A stretch of DNA of 39,416 nucleotides from Croceicoccus sp. Lineage in GTDB: Bacteria > Pseudomonadota > Alphaproteobacteria > Sphingomonadales > Sphingomonadaceae. Made by a program: the position numbers and the translations under genes. The stretch spans positions 1 through 39,416 of the forward strand of contig JAPYSD010000002.1 in the NCBI GenBank assembly GCA_029936705.1. Direction: 5' to 3'. The notes below the pieces were generated by a model. That model ran no database searches, was not told the DNA's origin, and was given only the letters and a program-made list of their open reading frames with translations. Positions 13,044 to 29,558 of the stretch are shown here, piece by piece; position 1 is the stretch's first letter, and each line of letters begins with the position of its first letter.

Positions 13044-13994
13044 ATGACAAACACACAAGCTTCCCCTTGGTTGCTCCTGATCCCGCAGCTTCCGGCTAAG
13101 CCTGCCTATTTGCGGGTGAAGGTCTGGCGGCGTTTGCAGGCGATCGGGGCCGCGCCGCTCAAGAACGCCGTCCATGCGCTCCCCAATCGCGAGGACACGC
13201 GCGCGCTGTTCGAAGAACTGCATCGCGAGATCACCGAAAATGGCGGCGAGGCGCTGATCCTCGAAGCGCGCCTTGTCGGCGGCATGGGCGATGCGGAGCT
13301 GCGCGGAGTGTTCGACGCTGCGCGTGACGCCGACTATGAGGAGTTGGCACGCGAGGCGCGCGCGCTGTGTGAGGGCGAGTATGTCGCGGCGGCGGATGTG
13401 GGCCGCCTGCGCAAACGCCTGAACGAGGTCGCCGCGATCGACTTTTTCGGTGCGCATGGTCGGCAGGCGGCACAGGCCGCCATCACCGAGGCGGACCGCC
13501 GCTCTCACCAACATCCCGATGTGAGCGGCCCCGGTGCGCCCGAGCTGACCCCGGCGGAGCTAAAGCGCCGCGTTTGGGTGACGCGCCGCCATGTCCATGT
13601 CGATCGCATCGCGTCCGCCTGGCTCATTCGCCGCTTCATCGACCCCGAGGCGAGCTTCAAGTTCGTCGAGGGCAAAGGATATGTGCCGGAGCCTGACGAA
13701 CTGAGGTTCGACATGGCGGACGCTGAGTTCACCCACGAAGGCGACCGCTGCTCCTTCGAGACCTTGGTGTTCCTCACCGGTCTCGAGACCGACCCCGCGC
13801 TGCGGGCGCTCGGCGAAATTGTTCACGACCTTGATATTGCCGATGCTCGGTTCGAGCGCCCGGAAACTCCGGGAGTGAGCGCGCTTATCGCCGGCATCTG
13901 TGCCGGCACCGACGACGACGAGGAGCGGATCGCGCGCGGATCGACCGCGCTCGACGGATTCTATGCTCACTTCACCCGGCGAAAAGAGGACTAA
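13044..13994 (+). CDS. chrB: Chromate resistance protein ChrB
   Basis: The protein is 316 aa, the usual length of ChrB. The N-terminal domain shows WLLLIPQLPAKPAYLRVKVWRRLQAIGA then LKNAVHALPNREDTRALF; the C-terminal ChrB domain shows VWVTRRHVHVDRIASAWLIRRFIDPEASFKFV, FTHEGDRCSFETLV and IVHDLDIAD. In characterised systems ChrB is a chromate-sensing regulator or accessory factor for ChrA. It begins the plus-strand operon and ends 2 bp before chrA. Confidence 0.93.
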   Translation: MTNTQASPWLLLIPQLPAKPAYLRVKVWRRLQAIGAAPLKNAVHALPNREDTRALFEELHREITENGGEALILEARLVGGMGDAELRGVFDAARDADYEELAREARALCEGEYVAAADVGRLRKRLNEVAAIDFFGAHGRQAAQAAITEADRRSHQHPDVSGPGAPELTPAELKRRVWVTRRHVHVDRIASAWLIRRFIDPEASFKFVEGKGYVPEPDELRFDMADAEFTHEGDRCSFETLVFLTGLETDPALRALGEIVHDLDIADARFERPETPGVSALIAGICAGTDDDEERIARGSTALDGFYAHFTRRKED

Positions 13995-13996
13995 AG

Positions 13997-15394
13997 ATGG
14001 AGGCCAGCGCACGCGCTGAAATCGCAGTCGAGACGCTGCACGAGCACGGCATCAGCTTTGGCGAGGCGGTGCGCGTCTGGATCAGGGTCGCGCTGCTCAG
14101 CTTCGGCGGACCGGCGGGCCAGATAGCGGTGATGCATCGCATCCTGGTCGAGGAGAAGCGCTGGATCGGCGAGGAGCGGTTCCTCCACGCGCTCAACTAT
14201 TGCATGCTGCTGCCCGGCCCTGAAGCGCAACAGCTAGCTGTCTATATTGGCTGGTTGCTCCATAAGACCAAGGGCGGCCTGGTCGCGGGCGCGCTATTCG
14301 TGCTGCCCGGCTTCCTCGCGATTTTAGGGCTCAACTATGTCTATGTGCTGCTCGGCGAAGTGGCGCTGGTCGAGGGATTGTTCTTCGGATTGAAGGCCGC
14401 CGTGCTGGCGGTGGTGCTACAGGCGGTGGTCCGGGTGGGTTCGCGTGCCTTGAAGAACAACGTCATGCGCGGTTTTGCCGCGCTGGCGTTCGTCGCGATC
14501 TTCGTGCTCGACGTGCCCTTCCCGCTGATCGTGCTTGCCGCCGCGCTGATCGGCTTCTTCGGTGGCCGCGCTGGTTACGCCGCATTCAAGGGCGGCGGCG
14601 GACATGGTCCCGCCGGCGCTGAGATAATCCACGACCGCGACACCGCTCTTGGCGAGGGCCTTCCCGACCATGCCCGGCCGAACCTCTCTTGGTCGCTGCG
14701 CATCTCCGGCGTCCTGCTGCTGCTCTGGCTCGGGCCGGTCGCAGCGCTGCTGTTCGCGTTCGGCCCCGACGACGTGTTCAGCCGCATCGCCACCTTCTTC
14801 AGCCAGATGGCGGTGGTGACCTTCGGCGGCGCCTATGCGGTGCTCGCCTATGTCGCGCAGGAGGCAGTCGAGACCTATGGCTGGCTCCAGCCCGGCGAGA
14901 TGCTCGACGGGCTCGGCATGGCCGAGACCACGCCCGGGCCGCTGATCATGGTGACGCAGTTCGTCGGCTTCCTCGCGGCCTTCCGCGAAGCGACCGGGCT
15001 GCCGCCGCTCGTCGCCGCGACCTTCGGCGCAATCCTCACCACCTGGGTTACCTTCCTGCCATGCTTCCTGTGGATCTTCGCCGGCGCGCCATTCATCGAG
15101 CGGCTGCGCGGCAACCGCGCATTGTCGGCCGCGCTTTCGGCGATCACCGCCGCAGTGGTCGGCGTGATCCTCAATCTGGCGGTCTGGTTTGGTATCCACA
15201 CTCTGTTCGAGCAAGTCCGCGAAGTGCCGTTCGCAGCCGGCACCATCGATCTCCCAGTCCTAACGTCCGTCAACTGGCCGGCGCTGGCGCTCGCGGTGGG
15301 TGCGATACTCGCCATGTTCCGGTTCAAGGCCGGCATGCTGCCGGTGCTCGGCGTCTGCTCGGTCCTCGGGGCCGCATATGTAATGATCATCTGA
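13997..15394 (+). CDS. chrA: Chromate efflux transporter ChrA
   Basis: The protein is 465 aa, as for long-chain CHR-family transporters. It has the two homologous halves of ChrA: the N-half with RVALLSFGGPAGQIAVMHRILVEEKRW and LNYCMLLPGPEAQQLAVYIGW, the C-half with MAVVTFGGAYAVLAYVAQ and GLGMAETTPGPLIMVTQFVGF. These 'FGGP' and 'PGP' motifs are the CHR signature. It has ten or more hydrophobic segments and exports chromate across the inner membrane. An RBS-like AAGATGGAGG surrounds the start; the start is 2 bp after the chrB stop. Confidence 0.95.
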   Translation: MEASARAEIAVETLHEHGISFGEAVRVWIRVALLSFGGPAGQIAVMHRILVEEKRWIGEERFLHALNYCMLLPGPEAQQLAVYIGWLLHKTKGGLVAGALFVLPGFLAILGLNYVYVLLGEVALVEGLFFGLKAAVLAVVLQAVVRVGSRALKNNVMRGFAALAFVAIFVLDVPFPLIVLAAALIGFFGGRAGYAAFKGGGGHGPAGAEIIHDRDTALGEGLPDHARPNLSWSLRISGVLLLLWLGPVAALLFAFGPDDVFSRIATFFSQMAVVTFGGAYAVLAYVAQEAVETYGWLQPGEMLDGLGMAETTPGPLIMVTQFVGFLAAFREATGLPPLVAATFGAILTTWVTFLPCFLWIFAGAPFIERLRGNRALSAALSAITAAVVGVILNLAVWFGIHTLFEQVREVPFAAGTIDLPVLTSVNWPALALAVGAILAMFRFKAGMLPVLGVCSVLGAAYVMII

Positions 15395-21158: not shown

Positions 21159-21394
21159 CGCGGGTTCCGCCACGGCAACCCTGGGTGAATAGCGGCGAAA
21201 GGCTGCCTCTCTTCGCCGACATTGCTGCCGTTCGCTGGCTCAGATTAGTCCGTCGAAACCTGCCCTACGTTCATGCCCAGCCAAAAGCGGTAACGGGCCG
21301 TAGCTGACGGGCGGCCTACAGGCGTTCATGATTGGGAACGGAGTGAATTCAGGATTACGCGCATCTCTAATGGACTGATATCTGCGTGAGACGC

Positions 21395-22504
21395 TCAAGC
21401 TACATTTCGACGCACCATTTTTCTACGCGATGGCAAACTGCGGGGCCTTGGGGCACGATCGCGCTTCGCTGGCGGGCAAGCAGGACAGCTGACGGCTTCT
21501 TCGACCATCGCTTTCGGTCCCGGGATTGGGCCTCCAAGGCGCCCATCGAGAATCTGCCGAATCAGATCGTCGAAAAGGTCGCGCTCGACCGCGTACATTC
21601 CGCCCCGCGCGCCTTCAAAGGCGCAGTTCCACGCCGCGAGTGCTTGGCCATAGCGTAGAGCATTTGTCAGACTCTCGATGCTCGTCGATTTCAATCCTGA
21701 AAGGCCCGCTCCGGCGATCTTCGACAATAGACCGGCCGAACACCAATCACCGGACCCGCAGCTGTCTAAAAACTGCGGCGCGTTGACCGCCGGCAAATGC
21801 GTCCAATCGGACAGATTTGAAAGACGATGGCGATAACGCAGCCCTTCAATGCCCATCGTCTGGATTTCAAGAATCGTGGCACTATCACCGGTCATCGCGC
21901 CGCCAGCCTCGCTCAAGCGCTGATCGGCATATTTCACGATGTGGGCGAGCTGCAACGCCTCGGCAAAGAGCTTGGGATCGGATTTGCCAGACGGCTCGAA
22001 CATGACGATCGCGCCCGCGTCTGCCGCTCGCGCTGCCAAGGTCAGCGCCGCGCGCGAAAGCCGATCCATGAAGAAAACTTGGGCGCCGTTGACCCCGTCG
22101 CCGACGGCATCGACGGCCTGGCGTGTGACCGGCTTGAAACTCGGCAACCACTGGCCGCAGCGTGGACAAGCCCAGGAAAAGCGGTGTGTTGGTGATCCAT
22201 CGCGCCCTCGACATATCTCCTGGATGATGATGGGCGTATGACTGGTTGGCTCACAACCGGCAAAATCCAGCTTCACGCCCCAGCGGCTCATGTCAGCCCT
22301 GACCCGCTCGGAGGCAGGGTCACCGTTCATGCGGGCGATTGGGTAGCTCTCCCACCCAAGGTAGGCGAGGATTGATAGAACGTTCCCGCAAGTCCCGCCC
22401 GCCCAAGCCTGGACCGGCAGGTTCGGATTCGCGCTCATGACCAGATCGAGTGCGATCAGGCCGGTCCCAAATGCGCGCGGCTTTTCGCCTTCGGCTGTGT
22501 TCAC
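21395..22504 (-). CDS. PfkB/ribokinase-like sugar kinase with CxxC knuckles
   Basis: The protein is 369 aa. PfkB features: WAGGTCGNVLSILAYLGW (about 35-51, the GG..N substrate motif) and FLDSCGSGDWCSAGLL (about 246-260), the anion-hole/catalytic motif in which D253 would be the base. The usual GAGD is GSGD here. An insert at about 110-120 reads CPRC and the C-terminal tail has CPAC, so a structural zinc site is possible. The tail after residue ~335 is Arg/Pro-rich. It is the last gene of the five-gene operon, overlapping gene four by 4 bp. The predicted role is ATP-dependent phosphorylation of a sugar or nucleoside; substrate unknown. Confidence 0.78.
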   Translation of the reverse strand: MNTAEGEKPRAFGTGLIALDLVMSANPNLPVQAWAGGTCGNVLSILAYLGWESYPIARMNGDPASERVRADMSRWGVKLDFAGCEPTSHTPIIIQEICRGRDGSPTHRFSWACPRCGQWLPSFKPVTRQAVDAVGDGVNGAQVFFMDRLSRAALTLAARAADAGAIVMFEPSGKSDPKLFAEALQLAHIVKYADQRLSEAGGAMTGDSATILEIQTMGIEGLRYRHRLSNLSDWTHLPAVNAPQFLDSCGSGDWCSAGLLSKIAGAGLSGLKSTSIESLTNALRYGQALAAWNCAFEGARGGMYAVERDLFDDLIRQILDGRLGGPIPGPKAMVEEAVSCPACPPAKRDRAPRPRSLPSRRKMVRRNVA

Positions 22505-23604
22505 GCCGCTACCCCCTCATTATGAAGTGCCGGTCGAGGCTGCGGATAGACATCCCCTTCCAACCAAATATGAATCATGTCGGCCGCCTCCTCGTTGGCG
22601 GCCGGCCCATCGAACGCGTAGCCGATCGCCTCCAGATAGGCGACAGGCAAATCACGCTCGAGTGCCGCCATCAAGGCACCAAGCGCCATGACCTTGCTTC
22701 CGAGCGGTGAAAGGATCATCAGCGATCCTCCGACCTCCGCAAAGACCGGCTTTCGCAGGTCATCAAGACGCAGGATCGTTCGATAGAGATCGAGCGGATC
22801 CGACTCGTCCGCATAGACAATATTGCGCGTATCTACCGACCACCCGCTCTCGAACTCGGTCAGAAACTCCTCGGCCAAGCGATCGCCGGCCCGCGGATCG
22901 ATCGTCGGAAACGGCAGGATCGGGCAGGTATCGTGCGGGTCGACGAAGGAATGCAGCCGTCCGAGCGCGCCGGCCCGCCCGGATGCGAGTTGCGGCAGCC
23001 AGAGCTTCGCGGCGCCGGCCGAGCCGTCGAGGGTCGATCCGCCGCGAAAGCCATGCACGAAGCCCGGCGCATCGCTCGATACCGACGTGATCGCGCCGTC
23101 GAGGGCCGGGTCATGTGTCACGAACAGGTGAAGATTGAACTCGGCCGGTGCCCGCACCGACCGTTCGACCAGATAGCGGATGATCGGGAACGCCGTGCCG
23201 ACCGAAAGCGCGCTGATATCGACGACGACATCGGTCGTCTCCGCGAAATCCTGCCGACCGATCAGCGCGACCGCATTCCGGCCGCCCACTACCGCGCCGT
23301 CGCTCCCGAAGATGTTCACCGGTGCCATCTCATGCGCCGGAATTGCCGCCCGTAGCACGTCGCCATTCGTGGTAGCGCGGTCGATCAGCGTCTGCGTCGG
23401 CTTCGGGCGCTCTTCCTGAAAAAACAACCCCCGGATTTGGCCTTCGGTGTTGGCGAGCCGCCGCGCCACGGTCGTAGAACGAGGATCAAAGCCAGCCCCG
23501 CCCACCAGCAGGATGCGACGTTCGGGGCGGGCGAAATAATCGTCCACGAAGCCGTCAATCTCGGCGCCGCGATGCGAGACGCAGGGATCCCATCGGCCGG
23601 CCAT
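22501..23604 (-). CDS. Unrecognised Rossmann-like protein of the five-gene operon
   Basis: The protein is 367 aa of unknown family. The segment ERRILLVGGAGFDPRS (about 28-43) looks like a first beta strand and glycine-rich loop, and TTDVVVDISALSVGTAFPIIRYL (about 123-145) like a buried strand with an Asp-Ile-Ser tip followed by a helix. The layout recalls Rossmann-type sensor domains, but no binding residues are proven. The C-terminal half has VFAEVGGSLMILSPLGSKVMALGA. It starts one base inside the ATPase stop (TGATG) and overlaps the kinase gene by 4 bp. Ligand sensing or an enzymatic role is speculation. Confidence 0.6.
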   Translation of the reverse strand: MAGRWDPCVSHRGAEIDGFVDDYFARPERRILLVGGAGFDPRSTTVARRLANTEGQIRGLFFQEERPKPTQTLIDRATTNGDVLRAAIPAHEMAPVNIFGSDGAVVGGRNAVALIGRQDFAETTDVVVDISALSVGTAFPIIRYLVERSVRAPAEFNLHLFVTHDPALDGAITSVSSDAPGFVHGFRGGSTLDGSAGAAKLWLPQLASGRAGALGRLHSFVDPHDTCPILPFPTIDPRAGDRLAEEFLTEFESGWSVDTRNIVYADESDPLDLYRTILRLDDLRKPVFAEVGGSLMILSPLGSKVMALGALMAALERDLPVAYLEAIGYAFDGPAANEEAADMIHIWLEGDVYPQPRPALHNEGVAA

Positions 23605-25514
23605 CAGGGGACCTCATCCAGAAGCCGAACCAGATCGTCGGCGCGCCGCTCGAGAAACCCGCCCCGCTTGAGAGTCAGGCCATGATGGAGCAGCAACACG
23701 CCGCCCAGCTCGATGAGACACCATTTGCGCTTCTTCGTGCCATGGTCCGGCACGAGCACAAAGGCGTTATAGGCCACGCCGAACTGCAAAACGCGCGCGA
23801 GATCGGGATGGCTCGTCGGGATCGAGTCGAACTCGTCTTGCGGAATTCCGAAGGCAGTCGCCCCACCCCCCAGCGACGCATTGCCTTCCAGGCTCTTGGT
23901 AACGCATTCCCGAGCGATCCCATCCGACAGACGCCTGACCAACTGCTGCTGCGGGAAGTCCCATTCCCGCACCATCTCGCTGGCGCGTTCGCGCAGCAGC
24001 TTGTGCTGCATCCCGCTGCGCAGCGTCGGCGCCTTGGCGCGAATGAGCTGGGTCTCCGACTGGGAGACCAGGCGGGCAGCCAGTTGCAGAAACTGCTCGG
24101 CATTCTCCGAACTAGCATCGCAGAGCGCATCGATCCCGAAATAATAAGGCCGATCATAGCGATGGAGGAGATGAATGCGGGCACCTTCCGCGATCGAGGC
24201 ATCAACCGTCAGCGGGCGGTTCGGCTCGACATCCTCCTCCGGCTGATCGAACAGGCCTCGCTGGGGTATCCGCTTGGCATAGCGCTCAAACAGCACCGAC
24301 AGCATTGCCATCTGCATGTCCTCGCCGGCCTCGCCCGTGCCTTCCAAATAGGTGGCAATATCCTGCGCGAGCGCGTGCCGGCGGACGGCAGAGATGTTAT
24401 GACGGCGCTGAAGCACGTCGACATGCTCCGCCAACCGTTCCCGTTTGCTCTGTGCGATTATCTCGGGCGTAGTCGACAACAGATCGCCGAGATTGTTCAG
24501 CCGGCGGCGATTAAACACCTCCATCTGGCTCAAATAGCGGCCAGCCATATCTCGCGCCATCTTGCGGAATGCGCGCCGCTGCCCGAGCCGGTCGTCGGTG
24601 CTCTGCATCCAGATATCGGTGATTTCCCGGGCACGTTTGAGGCCCGGCTCCTCACCGTCCTGCGGTTCGGCATCCAGCAGGACGTCAGCAGGCGTGAGCG
24701 CGTCGAGCCGAGTCAGGATCCAGCGCGAAACTTTAAGTTCTCGCCGCGCGAGCCAGCGCTGCAAGGCGGCCAATTGAGCCGGATGGAGGCTGTGCGCATC
24801 GTCGAAGATGATCAACGGGCGGAGCGTCAGCACATCCTCGCCATCGACAATGCGGAAGGATTCGATGACGTCGAATGGGCGATAGGCCGCGGCCGCCTGG
24901 TCATCGATATCCTTGACGTCGGGCGGCATGAGTGCGGCTGAAATCCGATAGATCGCGAGTTCGACCTCGCGCGCGCGCTGGAGCAGATCGGGACCGGCCG
25001 TCCCCCCGATCGCGGTCAACGCCGCATCGGCGTCTGCGCGAGGAATGATCTCAACCTGATCGAGCGCGACGCCTGCCGTCTGCAAGTTGCGCAGCCATGC
25101 TAGGATCGTGCGCGCTTGGAGGAGGGCGATCATCAACCCTGCCTTGAGCTCGTCGGGATAGGGAAACTCCCAGAATTCGCGATATTCCGCCTCGAGCGGA
25201 AGCCTGCCCCCCAGCAGGACCGGCTGCTCATCGACCAGCGCCCCGCACGCCGTCAGCGTGTCGATCAACGGCTTGTAGGTGTTGAGGCCGCGATTGCGCA
25301 GCAGCGTGCGCAGCGTCGCATACTGGAACAGCCGGGCCAGGGTCGTCTTGCCGCTGCCCGGCGTGCCGATCACCATTGCCAAGCGATCGTAGAGCCGCCC
25401 ATCCTTTGCCGGCTTCTCGAAGAAGGTCGACAGCGGTTCGGGCGTCACGACAGCCAAAAAGGCCTCGTCATCGCGAAGATATTCGGTGGCGCGCTTCTCG
25501 AAGGGATTGATCAT
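23604..25514 (-). CDS. AAA+/ORC-CDC6-like P-loop ATPase of the five-gene operon
   Basis: The protein is 636 aa. Walker A is [16 protein letters not shown] (about 48-63), Walker B is [17 protein letters not shown] (about 232-248, with D-D-A-H) and a sensor-1-like strand RWILTRLD follows (about 264-271). The architecture (N-terminal '[19 protein letters not shown]' docking peptide, AAA+ core, long helical C-terminal half) resembles ORC/CDC6-like or STAND-type regulatory NTPases rather than metabolic enzymes. Such NTPases often act as switches in prokaryotic conflict systems. It begins 9 bp after the PRTase-like gene and is coupled to the next gene by TGATG. Confidence 0.75.
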
Positions 25515-25523
25515 GGCCGCCGC

Positions 25524-26663
25524 TCAGACATGCCTCTGCCGCCGCCGGAACAGAGGGCGCATCGCCGGAGCCGCAACACCATCACGGTCCCCGCCCGCGG
25601 TCTCCGCCCAGAGCAACGCGACCGCGTTATTCGGTGTATTGTGATTCAGCACGAGGGGGAGCGCACAGCCGCCATAGCCAAGGCCGAGATGCTCGACGCC
25701 GCCAACATCCGTGTGCTTCGTGCGAATGATCGGATCGTAATATGTCTGGGTCAGCTTGATGAACGCATCGTCACGCCCTTCAACGACGCCCAGGGGCAGG
25801 TCAGTCGGGAGTACCGTGCCGAACGAAATATGGACCGCCTTGGCCCAGCCGTCGCCGACCAGCGCATCTTTTGCGAGCTCTTGACGCTCGCCGATGGCCT
25901 GCGCTGCGGTCGAAGAGGCGATATAGTGATGCACGCAAAGCTCCCAATTCGGATCGAACGGGTCGCTTCCGAGGACCTGGCGCGCGCCTTCGATTGACTC
26001 CTTGAAGCGCCAGAGCTTCCCCGACCACTTCTGCTTCTTCTCGTTGTAGCGGAAGAACGATGTGCCCGTCCCCGCGAAATCGTCGACAAGATAGACCAGC
26101 CGAAACAGCGCCTGCTCGTCCTTCAGATCCTCGCGAAGGTTGCCGAGAAGGTCTTCCCATTTCTCCTTGTCGAGCTGTGTTGCGAGCACCAGCTGTTCAT
26201 TGGTGAGCAGCCCGACATTGCTATGGCGAACGCCGTCGATCCGTGCGCCGTCGCTCAACCCCATGACGAGGGTCTGGCGGCGCAAGCGTTCCACGTCGCT
26301 CCGCGCCGCTTCATCGCCTAGCACCCGAAAGGCGGGAATGCCGCGCTGCGCCGCGACCGTCGACACCAGACGTTCCCGCATCGTCTTTGGATAGAACTGT
26401 TCGACGAGCTTCTGCATTTCGATGGGCCCGACATAGACCAACCTACTGCGCACGAACGCATAGGCCGTCTCGCGTTCCGCCCGATCGAACTGCTGGAGCC
26501 AGGTGGCGAGACTCTCGAAAAACCGCATGCCCGCCTGGAAATCCCGGTAGCCGTCATATTTCAGCCGCGCCATCAGCCGCAGCCAGCGATATTCCTCCCG
26601 GGCGCGCTCGTCGCTCCAGTGCATGATCTCGGCAAGGACTTTGAGGCCTAGATCCTGGTTCAT
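25524..26663 (-). CDS. Phosphoribosyltransferase-like protein of the five-gene operon
   Basis: The protein is 379 aa. The segment LVYLVDDFAGTGTSFFRY (about 189-206) is a PRPP-binding loop of type I phosphoribosyltransferases (hydrophobic strand, two acidic residues, TGT/S). The N-terminal ~180 residues are helical and longer than in housekeeping enzymes. The C-terminal motif CALPLVLNHNTPNNAVALLWAE is distinctive and, from memory, shared with PRTase-like proteins placed in predicted conflict systems (PRTase-CE). No purine or pyrimidine salvage subgroup fits. The gene starts 4 bp inside the SIS-HAD gene. Confidence 0.75.
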   Translation of the reverse strand: MNQDLGLKVLAEIMHWSDERAREEYRWLRLMARLKYDGYRDFQAGMRFFESLATWLQQFDRAERETAYAFVRSRLVYVGPIEMQKLVEQFYPKTMRERLVSTVAAQRGIPAFRVLGDEAARSDVERLRRQTLVMGLSDGARIDGVRHSNVGLLTNEQLVLATQLDKEKWEDLLGNLREDLKDEQALFRLVYLVDDFAGTGTSFFRYNEKKQKWSGKLWRFKESIEGARQVLGSDPFDPNWELCVHHYIASSTAAQAIGERQELAKDALVGDGWAKAVHISFGTVLPTDLPLGVVEGRDDAFIKLTQTYYDPIIRTKHTDVGGVEHLGLGYGGCALPLVLNHNTPNNAVALLWAETAGGDRDGVAAPAMRPLFRRRQRHV

Positions 26664-28597
26664 AGCAGCGCATCCGCCTTGAAGCGGACACCGCCTTCAC
26701 ACGGCTCAAGTGCGTCCAGATATTCGAGGGTCACTTGCAGGCCCCGCTGCCCCGGCTGACCAAGGTTCCAGCATGTGCTCGGATCGACGCTGATCTCGTC
26801 CACGCTCAGGGCGAACGGCTCGCGCAAAAGCGCATAGTCGTTTCCTGGCCACCGACCGCGATCGCCAATCGCCAGCAGGGCACCATCGTCGATCCGAGAG
26901 CGGATCGCCGCCAGTACGTTGGCCTTGGACACATGCTCAGGCACGATATCGATCGAATGACTCGACCGCGTGACGATCACATTGCGCATTCCCTGCGTGA
27001 GCAGTACTTCATGCGCCAGATCCCACAGTCGCGACTCCGACAGTCCTTGTCGGGCTTCCAATGTGACCTGGTATTTTCGGTCCGATTGTATCGCGGCGCC
27101 CGCCAGTTCGGGCTGATCGCGCAGCGCTAGCGCCAACGCGGCGAGCTCATCGCACGGTTCGTCTTTGCCATCCGGCGCATTATCTTCCCCCAACGCTGCT
27201 ATTTCGGCGCCATTATAATAGCCGATCAGCACGTTTTCCCACAATGATTTAGGCAGCGCAGCCTGAAGGTCGCGCCGCACCGAGGCGCCCCGCCCCGTGG
27301 CGATCGCCAACTTGACGCCTGCGCCGAGCAGGCGATTCAATTGGCTCTTGACCTCGGGCGACACGGCATCGAACCGATGCCGCGTGTCGACCAGCGTCCC
27401 GTCATAGTCGAGCGTGATCGCCCGAAAGACAGGCCCCAACAGCCGCTGGCGGAAAGCTTCCAACGCCCCCTGCCAGCGCGCAAGGTCGCCCGCATCGGCA
27501 AGCTGCGCGGCGGAAGCGCCCGCCTTGCGATGGATTGCCGCGGCTTGCCTGGGGGTCAGGTTGGCGATGCGGGGCGCCGCGGTGCGCGGCAACGGCAGAT
27601 GATAGAGCTTGCGTCCAAATTCGGGGACGCCCGGGCGTCCCGGATCGAGGCCCCGCGCGCGCCCCGCCCAACCCGTGATCTGCAACGCCGCGATGAGCGA
27701 CGCCAGCATCGTCGCCATCGGCGATGCTGGCAGCTCAAGCCTTGCGATGGGTATCTCGGGCGGCAGCAGTGCAAGTGTGCGCTCCGCGAGATCAGCTCCA
27801 GTCGGTGAATAAAGCGCGAGTACGGCGCTAGCATCGCCCCGCTTGGCGAGCCAATGATGCCGACCATGTGCGAAGTTCCGGTAGTCCGCGATTTGCAGGT
27901 TGCCCACCGCAGCTTCGGTGAACTTGGACTCGAGGTCGATCGCCCCGATCCGGCTGTCTGCATCGTGAAGGACAATAGTCGTGCCACGCCGCCACAAATG
28001 CTCGGTCGTTAGTGCCCAGTTTTCGATCTGAGCGGACCCAGCGTCGAGCAACGGCGCTATGTTGACACGTACCGCTTCCCACTCTTCTGCAGTGCCGAGT
28101 TCAAGCAAATATGCCCGGACAAGCACAGCGATAAAGCCCAGCAAGGAATTGGTGGCGAGGAAGCCGTCCTTACCCGCTGGCGGTGGAAAAAGCAGCAGAT
28201 CAACGAAAGTGTGTCTGCGAGCAAGATCGGACAAGGGACTTTCCGAGCGACCACAGAGGATGGCGAGTTGCCGCGGCTCCTGGTTTGCCAGCCGGCGCGC
28301 TGCACCTAAAATGTCGACGTTGCTTCCGCCGGCACTCAACAACCAGTTCGCGAGCGGCGCTGCGCTTGGTTCGGTCACATCTAGCGGGGTCGCCACTACG
28401 CCCAGTTGGCGTGTAACATATTGATGCAGCTGCGCCAGCGCGTGCGCCGCCGTAAGAGAACCACCAGATCCCACTGCGCGAAGCGGCATTCCTCCGGCCG
28501 TTCTCACGGCGCGTCGCAACGCTCCAATGTCCACGTCATCAGCCCAGGCGAACGTCTCCGCAAGCCGCGCCATCTCAGCTGCATATGGCTTCGCCAT
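26660..28597 (-). CDS. SIS domain-HAD phosphatase fusion of the five-gene operon
   Basis: The protein is 645 aa. The N-terminal ~330 residues form a double SIS-like sugar isomerase region: VGSGGSLTAAHALAQL (about 42-57), LAILCGRSESPLSDL, then LESKFTEAAVGN and NFAHGRHHWLAK (about 222-252), analogous to the E..K and 'HGP' loop of GlmS/AgaS proteins. The C-terminal part is a Cof-like HAD phosphatase: nucleophile loop ITLDYDGTLVDT (D397/D399), LAIATGRG, a KYQV/VSKANVL lysine region and LLAIGDRGRWPGNDYALL. Predicted: isomerises and dephosphorylates a sugar phosphate. It is the first gene, with TTAAGGAG five bases before the ATG. Confidence 0.78.
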   Translation of the reverse strand: MAKPYAAEMARLAETFAWADDVDIGALRRAVRTAGGMPLRAVGSGGSLTAAHALAQLHQYVTRQLGVVATPLDVTEPSAAPLANWLLSAGGSNVDILGAARRLANQEPRQLAILCGRSESPLSDLARRHTFVDLLLFPPPAGKDGFLATNSLLGFIAVLVRAYLLELGTAEEWEAVRVNIAPLLDAGSAQIENWALTTEHLWRRGTTIVLHDADSRIGAIDLESKFTEAAVGNLQIADYRNFAHGRHHWLAKRGDASAVLALYSPTGADLAERTLALLPPEIPIARLELPASPMATMLASLIAALQITGWAGRARGLDPGRPGVPEFGRKLYHLPLPRTAAPRIANLTPRQAAAIHRKAGASAAQLADAGDLARWQGALEAFRQRLLGPVFRAITLDYDGTLVDTRHRFDAVSPEVKSQLNRLLGAGVKLAIATGRGASVRRDLQAALPKSLWENVLIGYYNGAEIAALGEDNAPDGKDEPCDELAALALALRDQPELAGAAIQSDRKYQVTLEARQGLSESRLWDLAHEVLLTQGMRNVIVTRSSHSIDIVPEHVSKANVLAAIRSRIDDGALLAIGDRGRWPGNDYALLREPFALSVDEISVDPSTCWNLGQPGQRGLQVTLEYLDALEPCEGGVRFKADALL

Positions 28598-28662
28598 AAC
28601 TCTCCTTAATCTCGACCTTCGACCATCCCATACGATGCCTGGAACATCAAGAGAACAAAAAG

Positions 28663-28800
28663 ATGCTTCGCGAATACATTATGGCTCGCCTAAAGAGCTT
28701 GCACCCAGGTCAGGTTTCAATGGCCGCAGCAGCAATTGCGGTGAAAGTGATGAACGGCAGGAATGGGCACGTGGCTACCATTTATGATAGCAGCGTCTAA
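28663..28800 (+). CDS. Possible 45-aa small protein divergent from the five-gene operon
   Basis: This is an ATG-to-TAA frame of 45 codons, below the track's cutoff, in an otherwise gene-free 376 bp stretch (28598-28973). The sequence MLREYIMARLKSLHPGQVSM followed by AAAAIAVKVMNGRNGHVATI is basic-amphipathic with an Ala-rich helix. The ribosome site is weak. It lies divergently from the SIS-HAD gene, so its 5' end shares that gene's promoter region. It could be a chance ORF. Confidence 0.3.
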   Translation: MLREYIMARLKSLHPGQVSMAAAAIAVKVMNGRNGHVATIYDSSV

Positions 28801-28937
28801 GGTCGGCTATTCGCACGTCGCACCCCAATACCTGCCTTTCCGGATCGTCCGACCCTGCGGTCATACGGCATCACAGAAGCGTGCAGAGCAGGGGGCCGAA
28901 ATGGGAGTTTGCTTGTAATGTTCCGCAATACACTTAC

Positions 28938-28967
28938 TTGACATGGATCTGTAATGTATGACATTAC
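28938..28967 (+). promoter_or_regulatory. TTGACA box and perfect 17 bp palindrome, HigA-type operator
   Basis: A consensus -35 TTGACA (28938-28943) is followed by GTAATGT-ATG-ACATTAC (28951-28967), a perfect 7 bp inverted repeat ending six bases before the higB start codon. HigA antitoxins bind palindromes of this type at their own promoter. The overlap of promoter and palindrome supports autorepression. Confidence 0.65.
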
Positions 28968-28973
28968 AAATCC

Positions 28974-29256
28974 ATGGAGATCGAAAGCATCGATCATAAG
29001 AACCTCCGCAAGTTCTTCACGACAGGGAAGGCGAGGGGGGATTATAGAGGTAGAGCGGCTTCGCAGAATGCTGGCCTTTATCGATGCGACGGGCTCTTTT
29101 GACGAGCTGGCCATTCCGCCGAGCTACGGTTTCCATGCGTTGACAGGAGGCCGTGATGGCTGGTTCGCGATGACAGTCACGAAGAACTGGCGGCTTGTTT
29201 TTACCAAGGTGGACGAGACGACCATCGCCCATCTCGATCTGGAGGATTATCATTGA
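28974..29256 (+). pseudogene. higB: HigB toxin gene with a +1 frameshift in a G6 run
   Basis: The natural ATG at 28974 encodes MEIESIDHKNLRKFFTTGKARG, a normal HigB start. The rest of HigB (IIEVERLRRMLAFIDATGSF to HLDLEDYH) lies in the next frame. The two halves join perfectly if one G is removed from the run GGGGGG at 29035-29040. The track's 100-aa ORF from 28954 therefore has a false N-terminus. Either the toxin is inactivated, or this is a homopolymer sequencing error. HigB proteins are RelE-fold mRNA interferases of about 93 aa. The stop overlaps the higA start by one base. Confidence 0.85.
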
Positions 29257-29558
29257 TGACTCTCAAGATGCATCGTGCGCTGGCCGTTCACCCTGGTGCT
29301 TGGCTCAAAGAAGAGATGGTCGGGCCTTACGGTATTAGCGTGACCGATCTTGCCAATCGCTTTGGCGTGTCGCGTCCGCCTCTGAGCAATCTGCTCAACG
29401 GGAAGGCCGGGCTGTCGCCCGATATGGCGATCCGGTTCGAGAAGGCCTTTGGCGTTTCGGCAGCGACCTTGTTGCGCATGCAGGCAGCCTATGATCTCGC
29501 GCGCGCCGAGGAAATGGCCGATAGCATCAAGGTCGACCGCATTCCGGAACCGGTTTAG
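29256..29558 (+). CDS. higA: HigA-type antitoxin
   Basis: The start is at ATG 29256 (TGATG with higB). The protein is 100 aa: MTLKMHRALAVHPGAWLKEEMVG is the typical HigA/VapI N-terminus, then the HTH VTDLANRFGVSRPPLSNLLNGKAGLSPDMAIRFEKAFGVS. It would bind the upstream palindrome and neutralise HigB. The frame is intact although its toxin partner is shifted, so it may persist as a repressor or as protection against related HigB toxins. Confidence 0.9.
   Translation: MTLKMHRALAVHPGAWLKEEMVGPYGISVTDLANRFGVSRPPLSNLLNGKAGLSPDMAIRFEKAFGVSAATLLRMQAAYDLARAEEMADSIKVDRIPEPV

Follow-up and report, generated by a model that had tools for sequence, protein, structure and literature searches.

A mobile, recurrent five-gene operon as a candidate metabolite-gated conflict system of two exchangeable modules

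We describe a five-gene operon that constitutes a genuine, mobile and recurrent system, and whose proteins, when their distances and trees are compared across loci, form two co-evolving and reassorting modules: a triad comprising a CARF6 sensor, an ORC-CDC6-like ATPase and a PRTase-CE protein, and a metabolic module (module 2) comprising a HAD-SIS protein and a PfkB kinase, with or without a NADAR N-glycosidase. Building on the linkage, the retention of catalytic-type motifs, the mobility and the two-module co-evolution and reassortment observed here, we propose a mobile, metabolite-gated conflict system of two modules, probably directed against phages or plasmids, a reading to which we give roughly even chances. 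If true, conflict systems may consist of modules that can be exchanged and that communicate through a small molecule, and phosphoribosylation, erased by NADAR, would stand beside ADP-ribosylation as a toxic chemistry.

The window, that is, the whole stretch of DNA analyzed here (39,416 nucleotides), spans the full length of contig C71 in a draft genome with 810 contigs. Five coupled genes occupy positions 21395-28597 of its minus strand, with open reading frames that coincide exactly with those of an earlier sequence-only reading of this DNA. In the 5' to 3' direction they encode a HAD-SIS protein, PRTase-CE, an ORC-CDC6-like ATPase, a CARF6 sensor and a PfkB kinase. The earlier proposal that they form a single expression unit agrees with their junctions: a 4-bp overlap between HAD-SIS and PRTase, a 9-bp gap between PRTase and ATPase, a 1-bp overlap between ATPase and CARF6 and a 4-bp overlap between CARF6 and PfkB. 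Scans for promoters and terminators returned nothing above chance level. The features of the operon are as follows:

26660-28597, minus strand: HAD-SIS, metabolic module gene 1, with an N-terminal SIS-like half and a C-terminal HAD-IIB phosphatase (645 aa; Hydrolase_3 E=1.3e-9)
25524-26663, minus strand: PRTase-CE, triad gene, proposed phosphoribosyl-transfer or nucleotide-degrading effector (379 aa; PF24390 E=1.4e-15)
26058-26087, minus strand: PRPP-loop-like motif VDDFAGTGTS of the PRTase (D194, D195, F196 and G200 invariant in 12 homologues)
23604-25514, minus strand: ORC-CDC6-like AAA+ ATPase, triad gene, proposed switch (636 aa; PF24389 E=1.4e-13)
25344-25367, minus strand: Walker A motif GTPGSGKT of the ATPase (P52, G53, G55 and K56 invariant in 12 homologues)
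22501-23604, minus strand: CARF6-family protein, triad gene, proposed sensor of a ligand, with two Rossmann-like repeats (367 aa; PADLOC CARF6)
21395-22504, minus strand: PfkB-family sugar or nucleoside kinase, metabolic module gene 2 (369 aa; GTG start; PF00294 E=2.2e-9)
21213-28853, no strand: 7.64-kb mobile block holding the whole operon (99.6% identity to L032 and L033)

Motifs were compared with homologues that share about 21-72% identity with the window proteins. The HAD-SIS protein matches Hydrolase_3 above the curated Pfam cut-off, and its HAD-IIB motifs are kept in 11 homologues: DxDGT (D397, D399, G400, T401), ATGRG and GDxxxxxND. The GSGGS, KDGFLATNS and RNFAHGRH motifs are kept in the same number of homologues, although the SIS half of the window protein has no Pfam match and a SIS_2 match was obtained for just one of the 11 homologues (E=0.0067). 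The SIS assignment of the N-terminal half is thus weak by sequence. The PfkB kinase matches PF00294 with 37.5 bits (cut-off 25.8), G250, G252 and D253 of its GSGD motif are invariant among homologues and its profile lies nearest to fructokinases; its best NCBIfam match, ribose-1-phosphate kinase, is far under the cut-off of that model. The ATPase matches PF24389 with 50.9 bits (cut-off 27), and its Walker A residues are invariant in 12 homologues together with a Walker-B-like D238. All four assignments made from the letters that could be compared with Pfam in this way (HAD phosphatase, PfkB kinase, ORC/CDC6-like ATPase and PRTase, the last of which matches PF24390 with 58.3 bits against a cut-off of 27) are borne out by matches above cut-off, and with their motifs kept the four proteins look like active enzymes.

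PRTase-CE is a predicted nucleotide-targeting effector. The window protein also matches the retron PRTase_III-A model of PADLOC (E=1.2e-10), and its PRPP-loop-type DDxxxxG motif is kept, with D194, D195 and G200 invariant in the 12 homologues and a consensus of DDF..[ST]G[TS] across PRTase homologues. Structure models of the PRTase and of CARF6 were each predicted from alignments of five sequences; that of the PRTase is of low confidence (pLDDT 66), and its top PDB fold match, a uracil PRTase, is weak (E=0.03). At class level, PRTase-CE homologues lie in type I restriction-modification (R-M) loci (L072, L076) and adjoin an nSTAND NTPase (L075) or NADAR genes (L072, L073). In the latter two loci, which lack the triad, the PRTase-CE gene overlaps the NADAR gene (L072:7001-10152 and L073:5927-7533), suggesting a stand-alone PRTase-NADAR pair; in L072, an R-M locus, a type I R-M specificity (HsdS) domain and the NADAR domain form a single fusion protein.

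The fourth protein, previously read as an unknown Rossmann-like protein, belongs instead to the CARF6 family (PADLOC model PDLC01916, E=1.5e-129), and all 13 sensor homologues match three CARF6 models. Its predicted model (pLDDT 76, pTM 0.84) displays two Rossmann-like repeats, and a PDB fold search with this model placed no CARF among the best 50 matches. The nearest Foldseek matches are NKCC/KCC chloride cotransporters, among them C-terminal domains of NKCC1 solved in isolation, with E-values of about 1e-6 to 1e-5 and TM-scores of about 0.25, a likeness that is probably generic to tandem-Rossmann models.

The census covered 24 loci, almost all obtained from CARF searches and one from a PRTase-CE family search; the PRTase, ATPase and CARF genes are contiguous, in the same order and on the same strand, in 24/24 loci. 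HAD-SIS is present in all 24, PfkB in 22 and the NADAR N-glycosidase in 13, across eight arrangements; NADAR is absent from the window operon and from 10 other loci. Both the CARF search, which located the system in 7/401 genomes of the order, and the sampling of the phylum (6/399 genomes) include the genome of the window itself, and the distribution across sampled genomes is sporadic. Because the census loci had mostly been found via CARF, the order-level search was repeated with HAD-SIS, which retrieved the identical seven genomes; on plasmids, HAD-SIS matched the 17 records that CARF had matched and gave one further, partial match. HAD-SIS is therefore effectively private to the system in the sets searched. 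The 24 loci and the identical results of independent searches in the order establish that the co-occurrence of these genes is not due to chance; linkage is strong genome-wide, with homologues neither scattered nor consistently located within a biosynthetic pathway, the two outcomes that had been named in advance as contradicting a conflict system. On plasmid pRt1078 of Rhizobium tumorigenes (L044:1-10098), two divergent PRT-ORC-CARF triads stand in tandem, with a single HAD-SIS gene upstream of the first copy.

The mobile context surmised earlier is supported by plasmids and by the 7.64-kb block. Positions 21213-28853 of the window recur with 99.6% identity in two Erythrobacter-type genomes, Qipengyuania mesophila (L032) and an uncultured Erythrobacter (L033); the flanks differ, the rest of these 21-kb loci having no match to the window. 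Relative to the Q. mesophila copy, the window copy carries 18 synonymous and 9 non-synonymous changes, and the resulting dN/dS of about 0.17 is consistent with selection on function. A Tn3-type transposase adjoins the block in the window, and no pair of inverted repeats joins its edges at positions 21213 and 28853. Homologues reside on 17 plasmids, from hosts that include Rhizobium, Agrobacterium, Bosea, Pelagibacterium, Paraburkholderia, Sphingomonas, Sulfitobacter and Paenarthrobacter, and the system also occurs on long contigs (1.9 and 3.2 Mb) of chromosomal appearance. A phage-borne origin was considered and set aside, with no match in the phage collection searched. Four putatively viral IMG/VR contigs carry the system, one of them 73 kb long, and a search of viral contigs with the ATPase gave no match. 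The 73-kb contig (L086), classed as viral, holds HAD-SIS and the triad; PfkB and NADAR were not detected on it.

The division into two modules was evaluated by correlating pairwise protein distances (Mantel r). Correlations are high within the triad (PRT-ORC 0.87, PRT-CARF 0.92, ORC-CARF 0.94) and within the metabolic module (HADSIS-PFKB 0.90, HADSIS-NADAR 0.70, PFKB-NADAR 0.63), and low, although above zero, between modules (0.24-0.49), a pattern that is robust to dropping either L042 and L066 or the loci close to the window. The two modules yield different trees, and in AU tests the tree of either module is rejected on the data of the other (p<1e-40). The clearest swap involves L042 (Bradyrhizobium) and L066, whose HAD-SIS is 54-55% identical to that of the window and whose CARF and ATPase are distant (21-27% identity). 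The presence of NADAR requires two changes on the metabolic tree versus four on the triad tree. Of the five-gene unit first proposed, the linkage thus stands, but the notion of an indivisible unit gives way to what look like two exchangeable modules, with a sixth component, NADAR, that is missing here. Given that the modules reassort, we infer that they meet through a metabolite rather than through a co-adapted interface.

The mechanism we propose is likewise inferred in all of its reactions, in the binding of a ligand by CARF6, in the erasing direction of module 2 and in the role of the system in defence. The CARF6 protein would bind a nucleotide-like ligand, the ORC-CDC6-like ATPase would act as the switch, and the PRTase-CE effector would move a phosphoribosyl group, harming the cell or the invader and so halting growth or phage replication. 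The chemistry of the effector could consist in cleavage of the glycosidic bond of nucleotides or in placing phosphoribose onto a base or nucleic acid. Module 2, in which the HAD phosphatase-SIS isomerase and PfkB are often joined by NADAR, may act on a small ribosyl product or ligand through dephosphorylation, cleavage where NADAR is present, and rephosphorylation and isomerization of the released sugar, so that the signal would be set or erased and self-damage limited. The modules would communicate via a metabolite and, for that reason, could be swapped; module swaps accordingly offer a direct experimental handle on whether both modules share one metabolite. We regard as rather unlikely, and advance only tentatively, the more specific version, an immune circuit of a new kind: the exchangeable cassette of sugar enzymes would produce or remove a ribosyl metabolite not yet described, which CARF6-ATPase-PRTase reads, while the PRTase would phosphoribosylate nucleotides or nucleic acid and NADAR would reverse this modification.

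The relationship of the PRTase to retron type III PRTases, the location of PRTase-CE in R-M loci and beside nSTAND NTPase and NADAR genes, the antitoxin activity of NADAR proteins and the sporadic, mobile distribution argue for a conflict role, whereas the absence of any other defence gene from the window argues against it. Since NADAR is missing here and from 10 other loci of the 24, erasing by an N-glycosidase cannot be a general rule. The earlier suggestion that the window lies in a defence island did not hold: the ten flanking genes, which include a HigB toxin recognized by Pfam and not by PADLOC, have no PADLOC match at E<=1e-5. On plasmids, the 74 flanking genes gave matches to 51 PADLOC families, versus 16 for 74 control genes (E<=1e-10), but most of this excess derives from a single Gabija GajA (457 aa) and GajB at one locus (L035), and we therefore claim no enrichment. 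The defence-island argument is accordingly weak. At that locus, on a Pelagibacterium plasmid (L035:11341-17093), GajB (445 aa) and GajA follow right after the system, separated from each other by two IS elements, and GajA stops before the end of its model. On a Sphingomonas parapaucimobilis plasmid (L039:293-1701), a gene pair for a nucleoside deoxyribosyltransferase and a Mrr-type nuclease immediately precedes the system. In the window itself, paired genes for a HigB-like toxin and an HTH antitoxin begin 100 bp past the mobile block (28954-29558), and positions 13044-15394 hold genes for chromate resistance (ChrB-like protein, chromate transporter).

Several other readings deserve consideration. 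CARF proteins are known receptors of cyclic oligoadenylate, and a few sensor homologues weakly match Csx1 and CARF1 models, as might be expected if the operon supplied accessory effectors to a type III CRISPR system. The Csm1 model, however, detected no Csm1/Cas10 above cut-off in any of 13 carrier genomes; palm-domain matches reached about 31 bits at most, and an E. coli control also gave matches, as expected for GGDEF proteins. With no Cas10 above cut-off and one SMODS cyclase in the carrier genomes, a cyclic-oligoadenylate link is disfavoured, and we rejected the accessory reading, for which Cas10 is missing, as highly improbable. The same scarcity of CD-NTases and lack of Cas10 leave the source of the CARF ligand open, which favours the main rival to an erasing module 2: that HAD-SIS and PfkB, with NADAR where present, synthesize an unusual ribosyl or sugar nucleotide read by CARF6, to which the PRTase contributes or responds. 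PfkB kinases and SIS isomerases are capable of biosynthetic roles and module exchange fits a diffusible product equally well, yet HAD phosphatases and NADAR are hydrolases, and the operon has no linked nucleotidyltransferase or ligase with which a nucleotide signal could be completed. We regard synthesis as rather unlikely.

We also deem it unlikely that the operon serves plasmid maintenance in the manner of a toxin-antitoxin pair, the triad being a regulated PRTase toxin whose product module 2 detoxifies and phage defence being secondary or absent. Its carriage by 17 plasmids and the precedents for NADAR antitoxins in DarT1-NADAR and YarT-YbiA (PMC11125620) fit such a role, but the 1.9- and 3.2-Mb contigs look chromosomal, and a dedicated ATPase and sensor would be unusual for simple pairs. 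A role outside conflict, in salvaging or synthesizing an unusual ribosyl compound, would account for enzyme classes that all belong to sugar or nucleotide chemistry and for a PfkB profile nearest to fructokinases. It is nevertheless quite improbable in view of the sporadic mobile distribution, the presence of an AAA+ switch and CARF6, the recurrence of PRTase-CE in R-M loci and the lack of any constantly linked transporter, catabolic gene or pathway.

The component families of the metabolite-gated conflict system proposed here are already named conflict or defence families, as their Pfam names and PADLOC CARF6 attest. The PRTase-CE (PF24390) and ORC-CDC6-like (PF24389) families presumably originate in Nicastro et al. 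2023 NAR. By Pfam score, the window PRTase is a member of the first and the ATPase of the second; in the literature searched we found no description of the HAD-SIS/PfkB/NADAR module, of its constant linkage or of reassortment. For the CARF6 family, with models in PADLOC, we take the source to be Makarova et al. 2020 NAR. The 13 sensor homologues all match three models of this family, but neither a CRISPR locus nor a cyclase is linked here and no solved CARF appears among the best 50 fold matches. The statement that no described system has this composition agrees with the literature searched, from which the two likeliest papers were missing; since the component families are already named and their likely source papers lie outside that literature, an earlier description of the triad is likely. 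Retron type III systems combine a PRTase with a winged-helix effector (PMC12548924); the PRTase studied here is related to theirs, but its neighbours are HAD-SIS and ATPase genes instead of reverse transcriptase and winged-helix genes. NADAR proteins act as antitoxins and undo the ADP-ribosylation of bases (PMC11125620, PMC11543638), and, as in the DarT1-NADAR and YarT-YbiA toxin-antitoxin systems, a ribosyl-transferring enzyme may here adjoin a NADAR that could reverse its action, although this enzyme is a PRTase and not an ADP-ribosyltransferase, and NADAR is optional and absent from the window. The operon has no linked Ter genes, and its PRTase and sensor differ from those of Ter-type systems, in which a nucleoside-like metabolite module (PRTase, HAD) is coupled to a response module (PMC7824862); yet it shares with them the coupling of a PRTase/HAD metabolite module to a response module.
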